Assembly (NCBI RefSeq): GCF_900046455.1
Contig: NZ_FCOT01000013.1
Location: forward strand, 62,001-126,000
Direction of reading: 5' to 3'
DNA: 64,000 bases
Source of the DNA: Cellulomonas timonensis
GTDB taxonomy: Bacteria > Actinomycetota > Actinomycetes > Actinomycetales > Cellulomonadaceae
This document shows positions 2,650 to 61,122 of this stretch, piece by piece. Under the pieces are notes generated by a model. That model was not told the DNA's origin. It searched no databases and saw nothing but the letters and a program-made list of their open reading frames with translations. Within the stretch, counting starts at the first letter, position 1; each line of letters opens with the position of its first letter. The position numbers and the translations under genes were made by a program.

Positions 2650-4154
2650 GCACGCAGACCGTCGACCTGGTCGACTACGACGAGGCCGTGCGCCGGTACG
2701 ACCCGGTGATCGGCATCGAGGTGCACGTCGAGCTGGGCACCGCGACCAAGATGTTCTGCCCGGCCCCGGCGGTGTTCGGCGAGGAGCCCAACACGTCCGT
2801 CTCCCCGGTGTCGCTCGGACTGCCCGGCGCGCTGCCGGTCGTCAACGGGACGGCCGTGGAGTACGCGATCCGGATCGGCCTGGCGCTGAACTGCCAGATC
2901 GCCGAGTCCTGCCGCTTCGCCAGGAAGAACTACTTCTACCCGGACGTCCCGAAGAACTTCCAGACGTCGCAGTACGACGAGCCCATCGCGTTCGACGGCT
3001 ACCTCGACGTCGAGCTGGACGACGGCGAGATCTTCCGCGTGCAGATCGAGCGCGCGCACATGGAGGAGGACGCGGGCAAGAACACCCACGTCGGCGGCTC
3101 CACGGGCCGCATCCAGGGCGCCGAGTACTCGCTGGTCGACTACAACCGCGCGGGCATCCCGCTGGTGGAGATCGTCACGCGTCCCATCGAGGGCGCGGGG
3201 GAGCGGGCGCCCGAGGTGGCGCGCGCCTACGTGCAGACCCTGCGGGACATCTTCCGGGCGCTCGGCGTCTCGGAGGCCCGCATGGAGCGCGGCAACGTGC
3301 GCGCCGACGTGAACCTGTCGCTGCGCCCGACGCCGGAGTCAGTGCTCGGCACCCGCACGGAGACGAAGAACGTCAACTCGTTCCGATCGGTGGAGCGCGC
3401 CGTGCGCTACGAGGTGTCGCGGCAGGCCGCGGTGCTCGACGCCGGTGACACGGTCACGCAGGAGACGCGGCACTGGCACGAGGACACCGGCATCACGACC
3501 GCCGGCCGCGTGAAATCCGACGCCGAGGACTACCGGTACTTCCCGGAGCCCGACCTGGTGCCGGTCAACCCGAGCCGTGAGTGGGTCGAGGAGATCCGTG
3601 CGACGCTGCCCGAGCTGCCCGCCGCACGCCGCCGCCGTCTGCAGGGCGCGTGGGGCTTCGCGGACGCGGAGATGCGCGACGTGGTCAACGCGGGCGCCAT
3701 CGAGCTGATCGAGGCGACGGTGGCGGCGGGCGCGAGCCCGGCGGCCGCGCGCAAGTGGTGGATGGGCGAGTTGGCCCGCACCGCGAAGACGCAGGAGGTG
3801 GAGCTGGGCGACCTGCCCATCACCCCCGCGCAGATCGGCCAGCTCCAGGCGCTCGTCGACTCGGGCCGGATCAACGACAAGTTGGCCCGTCAGGTGCTCG
3901 AGGGCGTGCTGGCGGGGGAGGGCGACCCCGAGCAGGTCGTCGTCGCCCGCGGGCTCGAGGTCGTCTCGGATGACGGCCCGCTGCTCGAGGCCATCGACGC
4001 GACGCTCGCCGCCCAGCCGGACCTGGCGGAGAAGATCCGCTCCGGCAACCAGGGCCCCATCGGCGCGATCATCGGCGCGGTGATGAAGGCCACCCGCGGC
4101 CAGGCCGACGCCGGCCGGGTGCGCGAGCTCGTGCTGGAGCGGCTCAGCGGCTGA
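2646..4154 (+). CDS. gatB: Asp/Glu-tRNA amidotransferase subunit B
   Basis: GatB binds the mischarged tRNA, activates its Glu or Asp side chain with ATP and completes amidation with GatA-derived ammonia. I start at the GTG overlapping the gatA stop (GTGA), behind a GGAGGTG ribosome site, giving 502 residues; an upstream in-frame ATG would lie inside gatA and adds unrelated sequence. The catalytic cradle is recognisable ([10 protein letters not shown] near the N-terminus, [14 protein letters not shown]), followed by the helical and YqeY-like tRNA-binding tail ending in [12 protein letters not shown] strong hairpin 35 bases after the stop terminates the operon. Confidence 0.97.
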
Positions 4155-4188
4155 CCACATCGCGTGCGCCTTCCGCGCACAGAGCGAC

Positions 4189-4228
4189 GCACAGCGGGGC
4201 GCGACCCATCGGTCGCGCCCCGCTGTGC
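4189..4228. terminator. Bidirectional hairpin terminator between gatB and the merR-type gene
   Basis: A perfect 18-bp inverted repeat (arms 4189-4206 and 4211-4228) closes on a 4-base CATC loop. It stands between two convergent genes and can serve both. There is no clear T-run, which is common in high-GC actinobacteria. Confidence 0.85.
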
Positions 4229-4276
4229 ATGTGCCCGGCCACGCCCGGGCGGTCTCACGCCGGCGCGGGCTGCCCG

Positions 4277-5086
4277 TCAGGACAGGACGCTGTCCGCGTA
4301 GACCCGGATCGCGTCCCGCAGGTAGGCAGCGAGGCCGGGCGCGTGGGCGTCGTAGACAGCGGCGAACCGCTCATCCGCCACGTACATGTCGCCGAGCCCG
4401 GTGTAGGCCTCACGCCCGGGCGTCCACGACACGCTGACCCACGCGTGGTGGCGGGCGATGAGCGCCTGGACCTCGGGGTCGTCCACGGGCATGCCCGCCA
4501 CGAGGCATCGAGCGAGCTCGCGGCTGACGGCGTCGTGCTCTGCGGTGTGCCGGGCACGACCCTCCTCGCCGAGGCTCGCCCATGTGGCCTGACTGCGGTC
4601 CACTGCCTCGTCCCCCCAGCGCTCGCGCGCCTCGGTGTCGTACTGGCTGTTGTCGAATCCGGCGTACATGTCCTTGGCTTCCATGGCTGATCCCCCTTCT
4701 AGGGACTCGAGGGTGGAGGCGACGGTGGCGGCGAGCCGTGCGAAGCGGTCGCTCTCCGCGAGCAGCCGTTCGCGGTGCTCGCGGAGCAGGTCGAGCCGGG
4801 CCCGGCGTGCGGCGTCGGGCTCGGCGGCGTCCTCGACGCGCAGCGCGTCGGCGATCGTCGCGAGGTCGACCCCGAGCTCCCGCAGCACGAGGATCTGCTG
4901 TAACCGCAGGAGCTCGGGGCGCCCGTAGACGCGGCGCCCCCCGGCGGCGGCGCCGCAGGGTGTGAGCAGGCCGATCGCGTCGTAGTGGCGCAGGGTGCGC
5001 GACGTGGTCCCCGACAGGCGGGTGACCTCGTCGATGGTCCAGGTCTCGTCCTGGACCGAGCCCGTCTCCATGCCGCCCCTCCTCAT
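4277..5086 (-). CDS. MerR-family regulator with TipAS drug-binding domain
   Basis: The N-terminus is a MerR DNA-binding domain (WTIDEVTRLSGTTSRTLRHYDAIGL, about residues 16-40), followed by a coiled-coil helix. From about residue 140 comes a TipAS domain (YAGFDNSQYDTEARERWG), the all-helical pocket that in Streptomyces TipAL binds thiopeptide antibiotics. The family typically activates its own or a multidrug-response promoter on ligand binding. Two starts are possible: ATG at 5086 (269 residues) or ATG at 5071, which has the better ribosome site (GAGGAGG six bases upstream). It follows the photolyase gene on the same strand by 73 bases. The ligand is unknown. Confidence 0.9.
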   Translation of the reverse strand: MRRGGMETGSVQDETWTIDEVTRLSGTTSRTLRHYDAIGLLTPCGAAAGGRRVYGRPELLRLQQILVLRELGVDLATIADALRVEDAAEPDAARRARLDLLREHRERLLAESDRFARLAATVASTLESLEGGSAMEAKDMYAGFDNSQYDTEARERWGDEAVDRSQATWASLGEEGRARHTAEHDAVSRELARCLVAGMPVDDPEVQALIARHHAWVSVSWTPGREAYTGLGDMYVADERFAAVYDAHAPGLAAYLRDAIRVYADSVLS

Positions 5087-21837: not shown

Positions 21838-22902
<1,065 letters not shown>

Positions 22903-22907
22903 CCTGA

Positions 22908-22941
22908 TCGACGGCGCTGAGCTTTCGACGGCGCTGAGCTT
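22908..22941. repeat. Two tandem 17-bp repeats after ilvC
   Basis: The 17-bp unit TCGACGGCGCTGAGCTT occurs at 22908-22924 and again at 22925-22941 without change; the next bases (TCGACGGC, from 22943) begin a third, diverging copy that forms the left arm of the terminator hairpin. Confidence 0.85.
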
Positions 22942-22943
22942 TT

Positions 22944-22984
22944 CGACGGCCCGGGCCCTGTCCATGGACAGGCCCGGGCCGTCG
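22944..22984 (+). terminator. Hairpin terminator of the ilvB-N-C operon
   Basis: The arms on either side of a TCCATGGA-type centre pair over about 19 bp with one bulged C on the left. It stands 41 bases after ilvC and is the strongest structure in the gap before the ASCH gene. Confidence 0.8.
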
Positions 22985-26255: not shown

Positions 26256-27887
26256 GTGAGCAGCAGCACCACTGGCCCCGGCCTCCCGTTCCACGTCTAC
26301 GACACGACGCTGCGCGACGGCGCCCAGCAAGAGGGCATGAACCTCTCCGTCGCCGACAAGCTGGCCATCGCGCCGCTGCTCGACGAGCTCGGGGTCGGCT
26401 TCATCGAGGGTGGCTGGCCCGGAGCCATCCCGAAGGACACCGAGTTCTTCGCCCGCGCCGCCAAGGAGCTGACGCTGCGCAACGCCGTGCTCGCCGCGTT
26501 CGGGTCGACCCGCAAGGCCGGCGCCGAGGCGTGGCAGGACCCGCAGGTGCGCGCGCTGATCGACTCCGAGGCGCCCGTGGTCACGCTCGTCGCGAAGAGC
26601 GACCTGCGGCACGCCGAGCGCGCGCTGCGCACCACCGGCGCGGAGAACCTCGCGATGATCACGGACACCGTCGCGCTCCTCACCCGTGAGGGACGGCGCG
26701 TGGTGATCGACGCCGAGCACTTCTTCGACGGATACCGCGACGACCCGGCGTACTCGCTCTCCGCGGTGCTCGCCGCGTTCGAGGCGGGCGCGGAGGTGGT
26801 CGCCCTGTGCGACACCAACGGCGGCATGCTCCCCGACTGGATCGGGCAGATCGTCGCGGAGGTCCGCACGGCCGTCGGGCCCGCCGCGATCCTCGGCATC
26901 CACGCGCACAACGACTCCGGCTGCGCGGTGGCCAACTCGCTAGCGGCCGTGGCCGCCGGGTGCACGCACGTGCAGGGCACCGTCAACGGGTACGGGGAGC
27001 GCACCGGCAACGCCGACCTGCTCGCCGTCGTCGCGAACCTCGAGCTCAAGGGCGGCCGCGAGCTGCTCGCCACCGACGGCGCCGAGTCGGGGGGCCTGCG
27101 GGAGATGACCCGCATCGCGCACGCCATCAGCGAGATCACCAACATCGCGCCCTTCGCCCGGCAGCCGTACGTGGGCGCCAGCGCCTTCGCGCACAAGGCC
27201 GGCATCCACGCCAGCGCGATCAAGGTCGACCCCGACCTGTACCAGCACATCGACCCCGTGGCCGTCGGTAACGACATGCGCATGCTCATCTCCGACATGG
27301 CCGGGCGCGCCACCATCGAGCTCAAGGGCCGCGAGCTGGGCTTCGACCTCGCCGGCCAGGGCGAGCTGCTCACCCGGGTGACCAACCGGGTGAAGGAGGC
27401 CGAGGCGAACGGCTACACCTTCGACGCCGCCGACGCGTCCTTCGAGCTGCTGCTGGTCGAGGAGCTCGACGGCGCCCGCCCCGGCTACTTCACCGTGGAG
27501 AGCTGGCGGGCCATCGTCGAGCGCGCGGGCAGCCGCGGCGTCCCGGCGACCGCGGAGGCGACGGTCAAACTGCACGCGGGCGGCGAGCGCCACGTCAGCA
27601 CGGGGGAGGGCAACGGCCCCGTCAACGCGCTCGACCAGGCGCTGCGCCAGGCGCTGGTGCGCGTCTACCCCGAGCTCGAGGCGTTCCAGCTCATCGACTT
27701 CAAGGTGCGCATCCTCGACGCGATGCACGGCACCGACGCGGTGACCCGGGTGCTCATCGAGACCACCGACGGGCTGACGTCGTGGAGCACCGTGGGCGTC
27801 GGGCCGAACATCATCGAGGCGTCCTGGGAGGCGCTGACCGACTCGGCGATCTGGGGGCTGCGGCACCACGGGGTCGCCCCCCGCTGA
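26256..27887 (+). CDS. cimA: (R)-Citramalate synthase
   Basis: CimA condenses pyruvate with acetyl-CoA to citramalate, opening a threonine-independent route to 2-ketobutyrate and isoleucine. The 543-residue DRE-TIM enzyme starts with HVYDTTLRDGAQQEGM and has the metal-binding HxH in GIHAHNDSGCAVANS and the NGYGERTGNADL block. The C-terminal third is the LeuA-type allosteric dimer domain. Length and the FIEGGWPG motif favour CimA over isopropylmalate synthase; the 2-isopropylmalate function cannot be strictly excluded from sequence. The GTG start has GGAGAGAG upstream. An attenuator precedes it. Confidence 0.92.
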   Translation: MSSSTTGPGLPFHVYDTTLRDGAQQEGMNLSVADKLAIAPLLDELGVGFIEGGWPGAIPKDTEFFARAAKELTLRNAVLAAFGSTRKAGAEAWQDPQVRALIDSEAPVVTLVAKSDLRHAERALRTTGAENLAMITDTVALLTREGRRVVIDAEHFFDGYRDDPAYSLSAVLAAFEAGAEVVALCDTNGGMLPDWIGQIVAEVRTAVGPAAILGIHAHNDSGCAVANSLAAVAAGCTHVQGTVNGYGERTGNADLLAVVANLELKGGRELLATDGAESGGLREMTRIAHAISEITNIAPFARQPYVGASAFAHKAGIHASAIKVDPDLYQHIDPVAVGNDMRMLISDMAGRATIELKGRELGFDLAGQGELLTRVTNRVKEAEANGYTFDAADASFELLLVEELDGARPGYFTVESWRAIVERAGSRGVPATAEATVKLHAGGERHVSTGEGNGPVNALDQALRQALVRVYPELEAFQLIDFKVRILDAMHGTDAVTRVLIETTDGLTSWSTVGVGPNIIEASWEALTDSAIWGLRHHGVAPR

Positions 27888-34126: not shown

Positions 34127-34179
34127 CGGCTCAGTCTTCGCTGTCGGCTCAGTCTTCGCTGTCGGCTCAGTCCTCGCGG
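34127..34179. repeat. 18-bp tandem repeat at the 3' end of ybaK
   Basis: CGGCTCAGTCTTCGCTGT occurs at 34127-34144 and 34145-34162, then as a diverging third copy from 34163 that contains the ybaK stop codon. The unit is a multiple of three, so it looks like slippage duplication of the gene end into the short gap after yccF. Confidence 0.8.
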
Positions 34180-47992: not shown

Positions 47993-50224
47993 TCAGACCG
48001 CTGCCTTCTCGACCGGCCGACGATCGGCGGCCTCGAGGTTGCGGCGCAGCGACTCGCCCTCGATGTCGACGTTCGGCAGGAGGCGGTCGAGCCACCTCGG
48101 AAGCCACCAGGCCCGCTCGCCCAGCAGGGCCATCACCGCCGGCACGATCGTCATGCGGACCACGAACGCGTCGAAGAGGATCGCGACGGTGAACGCGAAG
48201 CCGAGGATGGCGATGATGAAGTCGTCGGACAGCATGGACGCGGCGAAGACGCTGATCATGATGGCCGCCGCAGCCGTCACGACCCGGGCGCCGTGGCCGA
48301 ACCCGACCACCACGGCCTCCCGTGGGCCCGCGCCGTGGACATGCTCCTCGCGCATGCGGGTCACCAGGAAGAACTCGTAGTCCATGGCGAGCCCGAAGAT
48401 GACGCCGATGACGAGGATCGGCACCAGGCTGAGGATCGGCGCCGCGGCGAGGTCGAACGCCTCGACTCCCCAGCCCCACTGGAACACCGCGACGACCGCG
48501 CCGAACGTGGCCGCGATCGACAGCAGGAATCCGAGCACGGCCTTGAGCGGGACCAGCACGGAGCGGAACACGAGGGTCAGCAGGGCGAGCGCGAGGAGGA
48601 CGACGACCGCCAGGTAGGGGAGCAGGGCGTCCGTCATGGTGGTGGAGATGTCGATGTTCAGGGCCGTCTGGCCCGTGACCGAGATCGACGCGCCGATGTC
48701 GTCCCGCAGGCCCTCGGCGCGGTCGCGGATCGCGGTGACGAGGTCCTGCGTCTCGACGCTGCTCGGCCCGCTCGCCGGGACGACGTGGAACACCGCTGTG
48801 TCGCCCGCCTGGTTCACCGTGGCCGGTGACACGGCCACGACTCCGTCCATGCCGGAGATGGCCTCGCCGGCCTCCGCGGCGGCCCGCTCAGGGTCCTCCG
48901 CGCCGTCGACGACCACGGTGAGCGGCCCGTTGAACCCGGGGCCGAAGGCGTCGCTCAGCAGGTCGTATGCCTCGCGCTCGGTGCTGCCCTCGGCGGCCGC
49001 GGAGCCGTCAGGCAGTCCGAGGCGCAGGTCGAGGGCGGGCAGCGCCACGATGCCGAGCCCCAGGACCGCCGCCACCAGGACGGGGACGGGCCGACGGGCC
49101 ACGCCCCAGGACCGCCGCCACCAGGACGGGGACGGGCCGCCGGGCCGCCGCCCGCCCCCACCGCAGGCCCAGCGCGGGCTTCCCCGGCCCGGCGCCGGTC
49201 TCGAGCTGGCGGCGGGTCGAGCGGGGGCGGATGCGCTTGCGGGCCACGCCGAGCAGCGCGGGCAGCAGGCTGATGGCGATGAGGACGGCGACCAGGACGG
49301 TGCCGGCGGCCGCCAGGCCCATCTCGGTGATCACCGGGATCCCGACGACGGCGAGCGCGGCGAGGGCGACGACCACCGTGAGACAGCGAAGACCACCGCC
49401 GAGCCCGCGGTGCCCACGGCCCGGCCCGCCGCCTCCTCCGGGTCGCGGCCCTCGGCCAGCTCGCCGCGATAGCGGGAGACGACGAACAGCGCGTAGTCGA
49501 TGCCGACGGCCAGGCCGAGCATGAGCGCGAGGGTGGGCGTCGTGGAGCTCAGGCCGACGAACCCGCTCGCGATCGCGATGCCTCCCACTCCGAGGCCCAC
49601 GCCGAGCAGGGCTGTGAGCAGGGGGAGCCCGGCGGCGACGAATGAGCCGAACGTGAGCACGAGCACCAGGGCGGCGACCGCGAGCCCGATCAGCACACTC
49701 GCGTCCTCGGACTCCTCATCCAGGGCGTCACCGCCCATCTCGACGGTCAGGCCCGCGTCGCGGCCGGTCTCCGCGGCAGCCTCCAACGCGTCGCGCGCCT
49801 CGGGGGTCATATCGCCGGGGCCCACCTCATAGGCCACCTGGACAAGTGCGACAGTGGCGTCGGGGTTCACGAGGCCGGCCGCGAACGGGTCGACGACGGA
49901 GGCGACCTGCGGCGCCTCCGCGAGCTCGTCGAGCACGGCCTGCACCGCCTCGGCGGCGTCGGGGTCGTCGAGGCGGGAGTCCCCGCGCGCGGCGAGGACG
50001 ACGCGCGCGCTGACGTTCCCGGCCGCGACCTCGGGGAACCGCTCCTCGAGGAGGTCGACGGCCCGCTGCGATTCTGTCCCGGGGACCGAGAACGTGTTGG
50101 CGGTGGGGGCCGAGAGGGTCGCCGCGCCCGCCCACACGGCAGCCAGGACGGCGAGCCACAGCGCGATGACGGTCCGCCGCCGGCGGAAGGAGAACCGGCC
50201 GAGCCGGTACAGGAAGGACGCCAT
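47993..50224 (-). pseudogene. MMPL-family transporter gene, broken by two frameshifts
   Basis: The gene would encode an RND/MMPL-type lipid or drug exporter. Both halves are clear: the N-terminal part (50224 to about 49385) with an external loop, TM helices and LGLAVGIDYALFVVSRYRGE; the C-terminal part with VIFGLAMDYEFFLVTRMREEHVHG. The frame breaks near 49383, where one base appears missing inside VFAGLTVVVAL, and at 49057-49148, where a 46-bp tandem duplication repeats ARRPVPVLVAAVLG. Correcting both gives 728 residues, a normal MMPL length. GAGGAG precedes the ATG. It may be intact in the real genome; see findings. Confidence 0.85.
49057..49148. repeat. 46-bp tandem duplication inside mmpL
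   Basis: Bases 49057-49102 and 49103-49148 are the same except at two positions, where A in the first copy is C or G in the second. The unit length, 3n+1, shifts the reading frame. Confidence 0.9.
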
Positions 50225-58673: not shown

Positions 58674-58861
58674 GCCCCGCGCGCTCTGCCTGAGCCCTGC
58701 CCTCCCGCAGCGCCGCCCGGGCCGTTCGGGGGTAGCGTGCGACGTGGCACCCCCCGGCCACGTCCATGCACTCCGACGTGGGGAGGCCCCGTGCAGACGA
58801 CTCGTCGCAGCGGCCTCCGGCCGGGTTGTGTGGCGCCAGGTCTCCGGAGCCCGGGGCGACG

Positions 58862-60362
58862 ATGAGCCCGGCCGGCCCGACACACGCCCGGTCCGCCCGC
58901 TCCCGCACAGCCGCGTGGCTGGTGGCGACGGCACTCGTCGCCATGGTCGCCGCCGTCGTCGCGGCGGCGCTGCTCAGCCCCGCGATGCGCTCCGAGCCGG
59001 CCAAGCGCGAGCCCGAGGCCACGCCCGTGACTCGCGCGGTGGTGGAGCGTCGCGCGCTCGGCGACGAGGTCCCGACGTTGCGGGGCACGCTGCGCGCCAC
59101 CACGACGATCTCCGTCAGCGCGCCAGCGCTCACCCCGCCCGTCGCGCGCCTGGTGGTGACCGACGCGCCCGCGGACGTCGGGACGGTCGTGTCGTCGGGG
59201 AACGTGCTCATCGGGATCTCCGGGCGCCCGATCATCGCGCTGGCCACCGACGTCCCCCTGTACCGGCCGCTGTACCCCGACGACACCGGGGAGGACGTGC
59301 GACAGCTCCAAGCGGCGCTGGCCGAGCTGGGGCTGTACGCGGGGGAGGTCGACGGCGTCTTCGGCTCGCTCACCGCCGAGGCGGTCACCGCGATGTACGC
59401 GCAGGTGGGCTATGAGGCGCCCGCGCCGGAGGCGCAGCGCGTCGCCGCGCTCGAGCAGGCGGAGGACCAGTGGGCGGCCCTCGCCGCGGCCGAGGACGCC
59501 GCTGCGGAGGGCGACGGCGCCGGCGGCCCCTCCGCCCACGACCGGACGGCGGCATGGCGCCAGCTCACCCGCGCGCGGGACGACGCGGGCGCATGGCTGC
59601 CGCTCGACGAGGTGGCCCACGTCCCCGACGGCGGAGCGCTGGTGACGAGCATCACCGAGATGGGCTCTGTGCTCGCCCCCGATCAGACGACGGTGGCGGT
59701 CCTCGTCGGAGGCCAGCCCGTCTTCACGGTGCGCGCGCCCGCCGGGCAGGCGGCAGTGTTCGGCGCCGGCGAGCGCGTCCAGGTGCGGGCCGCCGACGGG
59801 TCGGCAGTCGTCTCGGGGACGGTGCAGCACGCGGCGACGGCGACCGGCACGGCGACCGGCACGGAGGGCGGCGCGAGGGCTGATGCCGACGCCGGCGAGC
59901 TCGTCATCGTCGCCCCGCGGGCGGCGGAGGCCGGGCTCGCCGACGGCGCGCAAGTCGTCGTGACCCCGGAGGGCCGCGTCCCGCCCGCGCCCGCCCTCGT
60001 GGTGCCGCCCGGCGCGGTCCGGGAGGACGAGGGCGGCCGCTACGCCCTGGTGGCCGCGGCCGACGGCGCGCGGCACGGTAGTGAGAGGAGCGCGCGACCC
60101 CCGGGGCCTAGAGGCGAAGGGTGGCCGGCGGCGTCAGATGGGTATACGGGAGGGCGCCCTCGTGGTGCCGCTCGGCGCGGTCCGGGAGGACGAGGGCGGC
60201 CGCTACGTCCTGGTGGCCGAGGCCGACGGCGAGCCGCGCCGCCTCGACGTCGACGTCGGCGCGCGCCGGAACGGCTATGTCGAGCTGCTCGTGGACGGCG
60301 GCCTGCGCGTGGGAGACGAGGTCCTGCTCGGGGGCCCCGACGCCCGTGCTGGGACCGGGTGA
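58862..60362 (+). CDS. Membrane-anchored peptidoglycan-binding/HlyD-type adaptor (frame broken by adapter insertion)
   Basis: A membrane-fusion-type protein: one N-terminal TM helix (about 17-38), an HlyD-like barrel region (SVSAPALTPPVARLVVTDAPADVGTVV), a PG_binding_1 domain at about 132-183 (DDTGEDVRQLQAALAELGLYAGEVDGVFG), a helical hairpin, and a C-terminal barrel. In actinobacteria such adaptors usually accompany MacB-type ABC exporters; none follows here. As assembled the frame shifts after about residue 405, because a 163-bp unit holding adapter sequence interrupts it. Without that unit the frame runs to 60362, 445 residues. A reading to 60385 carries a false Arg/Gly-rich tail. Confidence 0.8.
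59992..60231. repeat. Duplicated coding segment flanking the adapter insertion
   Basis: Bases 59992-60068 recur at 60155-60231, offset by 163 bases, with a few differences. Where they differ, the first copy has C in place of T or A in the second, as expected of poor-quality base calls. The second copy continues smoothly into the true gene end. Confidence 0.9.
60069..60154. other. Probable sequencing-adapter contamination (Illumina P5/Nextera read 1)
   Basis: Bases 60122-60154 align without gaps to the 33-nt Nextera read-1 transposase adapter at 25 positions, including the run GCGTCAGATG, and 60085-60113 align to the 29-nt P5 primer at 17; the 8 bases between fit an index. Nearly all differences are changes to G or C. 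On the minus strand the region encodes YTHLTPPAT, close to YTHLTLPT, the translation of intact adapter. Confidence 0.85.
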
Positions 60363-60396
60363 GGTCTCCGGGCGCGGGCGGGTAGCATCCGTGACC

Positions 60397-61122
60397 GTGC
60401 GAGCACCGCAGCGATCCAACCGCGCCTACCGCAACGTCGCCCGCGTGATCCGGCCCCTGCTGCTGGCGATCACGAAGCGCGACTGGCGGGGCGTCGAGAA
60501 CCTCCCGGCCACCGGGGGGTACATCGCCGCGGCCAACCACATGACGAACTTCGACCCGCTGACGTTCGCGCACTTCCTGTACGACAACGGGGTCGCGCCG
60601 AAGATCCTCGCGAAGTCGTCGCTGTTCACGATCCCCGTGGTCGGGCGCATCCTGGCCGCCACCGGCCAGATCCCCGTGCACCGCAACACTGTGCAGGCCG
60701 GGCAGTCCCTCGACGCCGCCGTCACCGCGCTGGCCGAGGGGGAGTGCGTCGCGGTCTTCCCCGAGGGCACCCTGACCGGCGACGCCGACCTGTGGCCCAT
60801 GGTCGGCAAGACGGGCGTCGCCCGGCTCGCGCTCACCACGCGGGTCCCCGTCATCCCGATCGCGCAGTGGGGGCCGCAGGACGTGCTGGGCCGCTACGGC
60901 AAGGTGTTCCGGCCGATCCCGCCCAAGCCGGTCACGGTGGTCGCTGGCCCCCCGGTGGTGCTCGACGACCTCTACGACCGGCCCTTGGACACGGCGACAC
61001 TGCGTGAGGCCACGGGCAGGGTCATGGCGGCCATCACCTCGCTGCTCGAGGAGATCCGCGACGAGAAAGCCCCCGCGGAGACCTACGACCCGCGCCGCGC
61101 GCGGCAGGCGGGCGAGGCGTGA
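60397..61122 (+). CDS. plsC: 1-Acylglycerol-3-phosphate O-acyltransferase family protein
   Basis: PlsC adds the second acyl chain to lysophosphatidate in phospholipid synthesis at the inner membrane face. The 241-residue protein has the acyltransferase motif NHMTNFD (NHx4D type), VFPEGTLT and PVIPIAQWGPQ. Two in-frame GTG starts, 60391 and 60397, follow TAGCAT; I choose 60397 by spacing (eight bases). The upstream in-frame extension lies in the damaged adaptor gene. Its stop overlaps gpsA, giving the common actinobacterial plsC-gpsA-ddl order. Confidence 0.93.
   Translation: MRAPQRSNRAYRNVARVIRPLLLAITKRDWRGVENLPATGGYIAAANHMTNFDPLTFAHFLYDNGVAPKILAKSSLFTIPVVGRILAATGQIPVHRNTVQAGQSLDAAVTALAEGECVAVFPEGTLTGDADLWPMVGKTGVARLALTTRVPVIPIAQWGPQDVLGRYGKVFRPIPPKPVTVVAGPPVVLDDLYDRPLDTATLREATGRVMAAITSLLEEIRDEKAPAETYDPRRARQAGEA

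Follow-up and report, generated by a model that had tools for sequence, protein, structure and literature searches.

In the assembly of Cellulomonas timonensis, a gene for a peptidoglycan-binding domain protein is interrupted by 80 foreign bases that are, with near certainty, a sequencing-library artefact built into the assembly. The unit lies in a window of 64,000 nucleotides (the whole stretch of DNA that was analysed), is made up of the degraded parts of a Nextera adapter, and is flanked by two copies of one coding segment (Table 1). The original prediction had placed a degraded Nextera/P5 adapter at 60069-60154. The adapter unit itself was recovered; the range has to be shortened, as 60069-60074 belong to the first copy of the duplicated segment and the unit proper spans 60075-60154.

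Table 1. Features of the interrupted gene and of the foreign unit (positions refer to the window)
Feature	Position	Strand	Remarks
Left gene part, peptidoglycan-binding domain protein (adaptor-like by eye)	58766..60074	+	In frame until the artefact
Copy 1 of the duplicated segment	59992..60074	+	83 nt, 94% to 60155-60237
Foreign unit	60075-60154	+	80 bases: 10 bases, P5, 8-base index, read-1 arm
Bases without assigned adapter part, between copy 1 and P5	60075..60084	.	10 bases; direct reading
Illumina P5, degraded	60085..60113	+	17/29, top score at a gap of exactly 8
i5 index GCGAAGGG, degraded	60114..60121	+	5/8 to the consensus GCGTAAGA
Nextera read-1 arm including the mosaic end, degraded	60122..60154	+	25/33; mosaic end 14/19
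Copy 2 of the duplicated segment	60155..60237	+	Starts at the first base past the mosaic end
Right gene part, C-terminus	60155..60362	+	Frame differs from that of the left part

The adapter parts were scored against the adapter sequences. The best match to the read-1 arm on either strand of the window was indeed the predicted one, and it exceeded both the second place (20) and the maximum of every one of 60 Markov nulls (19-22). The predicted index-sized gap was likewise reproduced: of 16 gap lengths (0-15) between P5 and the arm, a gap of 8 gave the highest P5 score and the runner-up reached 10. The P5 score alone has no significance, considering that 17 or more matches occur at 16 positions on the plus strand of the window (60085-60113 included), with a maximum of 19. 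Taken together and in register, P5 and the arm match at 42 of 62 positions, against top values of 30-34 in the 60 nulls, which were built from the window, and 32 at the second-ranked place in the window; the comparison with the adapter sequences thereby upholds the proposed identity. Moreover, a model of the read-1 adapter that was built without the window copy (R1) recovered that copy in a search of the whole genome (22.9 bits, E 3.4e-4) and ranked it first among its hits when run on the window. The window copy is one of the more degraded: its mosaic end has 5 mismatches in 19 bases and is below the thresholds of both genome-wide pattern searches described below. TruSeq, P7 and read-2 adapters gave nothing outstanding across the window, as judged by raw scores without nulls. 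A second candidate in the window, at 27414-27435 on the minus strand (16.5 bits), was rejected; its top ungapped place scored 19 for the read-1 arm and 8 for P5, and its flanks are not duplicated above shuffles.

The two copies of the coding segment are identical at 78 of 83 positions and lie 163 bases apart, in agreement with the prediction. The extra length at the locus is made up of the 83 duplicated and the 80 foreign bases (+163), and the genomic sequence resumes exactly at the edge of the mosaic end, position 60155 adjoining the end of the arm at 60154. Against Pfam, the left piece of the gene gave the domain PF01471 (E 2.4e-9) and the right piece nothing. The pieces were searched separately. 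In Cellulomonas cellasea ET82 (L061) the left piece (58766-60073) found a match of 77% identity over 447 aligned positions, and the right piece (60153-60362) one of 75% over 68 residues that adjoins and overlaps the left match. These matches occupy 3001-4338 and 4264-4467 of that stretch, and 1501-2796 and 2719-2913 of the second relative (L051), in a single frame in each case. In both, the overlap of the left and right matches corresponds to the duplicated segment, which is present once. In the window the two pieces are offset by 1 in frame (163 being 1 modulo 3), in both relatives by 0. The comparison with relatives that had been proposed as a check thus bears out that the unit shifts the frame and that the duplication is not biological. 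The close orthologues found were two only, since L050 and L061 appear to be one stretch (their coordinates are identical); in these two, both from the genus Cellulomonas, the insertion is absent and the gene uninterrupted. A search of 23 other genomes with the left piece gave matches of 64-80% over nearly the full length in the genomes of these two only (G006 and G005), and weaker matches in 12 further genomes.

The start of the gene may be at 58766 or at 58862. From the ATG at 58862 to the end of the stop codon at 60362, removal of 163 of the 1501 bases leaves 1338, that is 446 codons or 445 residues and a stop; the predicted frame of 445 residues agrees with this figure, which is coordinate arithmetic only. 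The 539-residue frame ends in the Arg-rich tail that had been considered not to be biological; this tail is the C-terminus read out of frame. Two other open reading frames cross the adapter. The one at 60108-60419 on the minus strand (103 residues) ends in translated adapter, and the one at 60121-61122 on the plus strand gives a false N-terminal extension to the next gene, acyltransferase-like by eye.

The copies of the segment differ at five sites, at four of which copy 1 has C and at one G. At three of them C. cellasea has the base of copy 2, at one that of copy 1 and at one that of neither; by eye, L051 has the base of copy 2 at the first two, and a gap prevents comparison at the other three. 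As far as these few sites allow a comparison of the sequences, copy 1 is probably the one with more errors.

The window copy does not stand alone. Its assembly (G000; 4,057,828 bases in 13 contigs) has a completeness rating of 99.98% and serves to represent its species. A search of it with the 20-base CAGATGTGTATAAGAGACAG, allowing up to three mismatches, gave 31 places and none with the reversed control. The 19-base mosaic end was found at 36 places (two mismatches at 23, three at 13), which group into 31 clusters; the window copy is not counted among them. The same mosaic end was found in none of 38 relatives (six of the same genus) and nowhere with the reversed control. The 80-base unit as a whole had no match in the 38 relatives at E <= 0.001, with the best 23 first-look candidates scored in most genomes, so that a relative with the same insertion, named beforehand as the observation that would speak against an artefact, was looked for and was absent at this threshold. 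A single one of the 36 is close to a contig end (on contig C1, 79 bases from its start), the other 35 being over 9.8 kb away from any end. The model R1, built from 23 read-1 arms, gave at least 53 hits in the assembly at E <= 1, of which 37 had an E-value under 0.005. These E-values are rough, the scoring covered 150 of 7343 candidates, and the 23 source sites match by construction.

A closer inspection covered 33 stretches (32 fetched and the window), 30 of which have one or more arms with a score of 22 or above. These arms number 37, namely 27 of read 1 and 10 of read 2, with some doubtful or overlapping ones retained in all counts: two overlapping plus-strand arms in L033, a plus-strand arm of 22/33 in L028, and a read-2 arm with 9/19 in the mosaic end in L039. 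When P5 or P7 was placed over 17 gaps, a gap of 8 was the sole best for 19 of the 37 arms, tied for two, and another gap was best for 16. The three stretches in which no arm reached 22 were set aside (L031, a mosaic end with three mismatches, and the weak BLAST hits L047 and L048). In five stretches (L021, L026, L028, L033 and L039) arms are present on both strands, with the mosaic ends facing the genome outward. As to the read-through of a poor-quality read, which had been proposed as the source, the adapter artefact stands; the fault is one of the whole assembly and not of one stray read. Genes at the adapter sites of this assembly, for instance in L019, L023, L038 and L039, are not trustworthy.

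A flank duplication clearly above shuffles was found in 7 of the 30 stretches, the window included, over 83, 41, 123, 98, 160, 21 and 27 aligned positions; in six of the seven, the copy on the adapter side starts at most 2 bases from the adapter edge. Since no clear flank duplication was seen at the other 23 (L020 and L034 were slightly above their shuffles), an unrecognised overlap is not general across the sites. Flank repeats were also seen at the later loci L091 and L086 and, more weakly, at L088; the minus-strand loci L084, L087, L089 and L092 were scored on one strand, and low scores there are uninformative.

The independent sites share one library index. The read-1 consensus over 26 sites, the window left out, is GCGTAAGA, which is found exactly at four; its last columns are weak, with A in 13 and 12 of the 26 sites. 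The index in the window agrees with this consensus at only 5 of 8 positions (Table 1). For read 2, the index TTCTGCCT is exact at three of 10 sites and matches at 7 of 8 bases in two more. The pair GCGTAAGA/TTCTGCCT presumably represents the Nextera indices i5 S517 and i7 N703.

The distribution of the mismatches provides a further link to the tails of reads. Per 7-base bin outward from the genome, the identity at the read-1 sites is 0.83, 0.90, 0.88, 0.89, 0.75, 0.71, 0.43, 0.45, 0.39 and 0.28, that is 0.75-0.90 in the arm versus 0.28-0.45 in P5. The fall is weaker for read 2 (0.71, 0.86, 0.96, 0.76, 0.80, 0.69, 0.64, 0.66, 0.53 and 0.60). The bins are ungapped, so that indels deepen the fall, and the selection of sites raises the first bins. 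This outward fall is the behaviour of the tail of a read-through read. In addition, every mosaic end found by pattern search in the assembly has at least two mismatches: the 19-base search yielded no copy with 0 or 1, where 13.6 would be expected at the measured error rate of 0.156 (69 of 442 adjacent bases) and 22.9 at an assumed rate of 0.12. Common trimmers tolerate 10% errors, which is one mismatch in 19 bases. The substitutions are strongly directed. In the window copy each of the 20 mismatches is to G or C, and over the first 33 bases of the 37 arms, in read direction and with the doubtful arms included, 138 of 178 substitutions are to C or G (98 C, 40 G, 32 T and 8 A). Plain read error does not explain the substitutions to G and C in the window copy; our guess is that the bias reflects consensus formation or error correction in a genome of 72.5% GC.

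The mosaic end is not confined to this assembly. When up to two mismatches were allowed, a survey of 297 genomes of the order found it in 11, this assembly included, and in none with the controls. The other carriers are G044, G110, G127, G192, G205, G219, G235, G253, G271 and G291. In eight of these ten, the mosaic end occurs only near contig ends, at 23 places in all, each no more than 180 bases from the end and directed inward; G110 and G219 have two internal places each, and no flank duplication was found around these in stretches of 332-426 bases. Given the eight genomes with adapters at contig ends, such ends are the natural source of degraded adapters. Degraded adapters collect there, and in the assembly of the window such ends have probably been joined.

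The following course of events would account for these observations. With short inserts in a Nextera library, sequencing would have continued past the insert into the adapter, where the quality of the read is poor. Such a read would run from the genome into the mosaic end and the read-1 arm, then through the i5 index and P5 into filler; positions 60075-60154 show the reverse complement of this order. A read whose 19-base mosaic end contained no more than one error would have been trimmed, and reads with two or more would have escaped and become contig ends. At a later joining, by scaffolding or gap closing and without the insertion of N, a contig led by an adapter may have been abutted to the contig ending at 60074, copy 1 then being the end of the left contig. 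The overlap of 83 bases would have been missed because the adapter stood in between and one of the copies carries errors. The outcome would be the 83 duplicated and 80 foreign bases, the +1 frameshift and the false Arg-rich tail. We consider the abutting of contig ends the probable route. The same artefact may also have arisen through a chimeric library molecule, or through a gap filler that inserted a read, and to this we assign a minor though real probability. The internal position of 35 of the 36 places and the absence of N from loci L001-L092 would suit a gap filler no less than an abutting step; N is present in 2 of 111 loci of the extended set, hence in other genomes. Against it speak the eight contaminated genomes with all places at contig ends, and the five stretches with arms on both strands, which look like two adapter-bearing ends meeting (the weak plus-strand arm of L028 makes that stretch a less certain example).

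Explanations that leave the library aside fare far worse. Coding-segment copies flank the unit, and partial duplications are known in nature, so one could imagine a real partial duplication of the 3' end of the gene together with an 80-base insertion of other origin whose likeness to an adapter is accidental. This is very improbable in view of the combined score, which no null reached, of the further mosaic ends in this assembly and their absence from the relatives, and of the second copy that starts exactly at the edge of the mosaic end. The mosaic end is itself derived from the transposon Tn5, which might suggest the true insertion of a Tn5-like transposon end. Tn5 gives a duplication of 9 bases; here the flank repeat is 83 bases long, and across sites, where it is clear at all, it varies from 21 to 160 positions, so that the short target-site duplication of fixed length left by a natural transposon was not found. 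The copies also bear synthetic read-1 and read-2 arms, 8-base indices and P5 or P7, and their mosaic end is missing from the 38 relatives. We regard this last possibility as practically negligible.

Adapter contamination of assemblies is already established, and the present case is a degraded, internal Nextera form of it. In Moeller et al. (2024, BMC Genomics 25:1033; PMC11536531), 1110 of 15,657 MGnify species assemblies are described as enriched in adapters (p < 0.01), where about 157 would be expected by chance, and the adapters concentrate at contig ends. The method described there uses exact matches to a 12-base TruSeq universal adapter, and the words 'nextera' and 'mismatch' have 0 occurrences in the main text (PMC11536531). 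As far as these descriptions go, our case resembles theirs in that an adapter was built into an assembly, and it differs in that the adapter is Nextera, is degraded beyond what exact words would match and sits within long contigs. Adaptors are also counted among the common contaminants in the account that the FCS-GX paper gives of NCBI submission screening with VecScreen and megaBLAST (PMC10898089). The literature searched contained no report of degraded internal adapter copies, which is a weak negative.

We lean towards the view that adapters just outside the tolerance of trimming form a distinct and under-counted class of errors in species-representative genomes: they would survive at contig ends made of reads that could not be trimmed, be buried within long scaffolds through joining, and give rise to false duplications, frameshifts and C-termini that exact-match screens miss. 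The frequency of 11 in 297 genomes suggests that it would pay to screen with tolerant profiles instead of exact words. Gene models that cross adapter remnants, such as the one with the Arg-rich tail, are false. If the reading of the indices is true, the remnants in this assembly reveal the barcode of the library. The insertion in the window is in itself biologically unimportant.

The window also contains other repeats. Two short tandem repeats of period 18, at 34127-34177 and 22896-22950, have a lower G+C content than the window, with the consensuses CGGCTCAGTCTTCGCTGT (2.8 copies) and GCGCTGAGCTTTCGACG (3.1 copies), and at 49057-49146 a 46-base unit is present in two tandem copies (97%).
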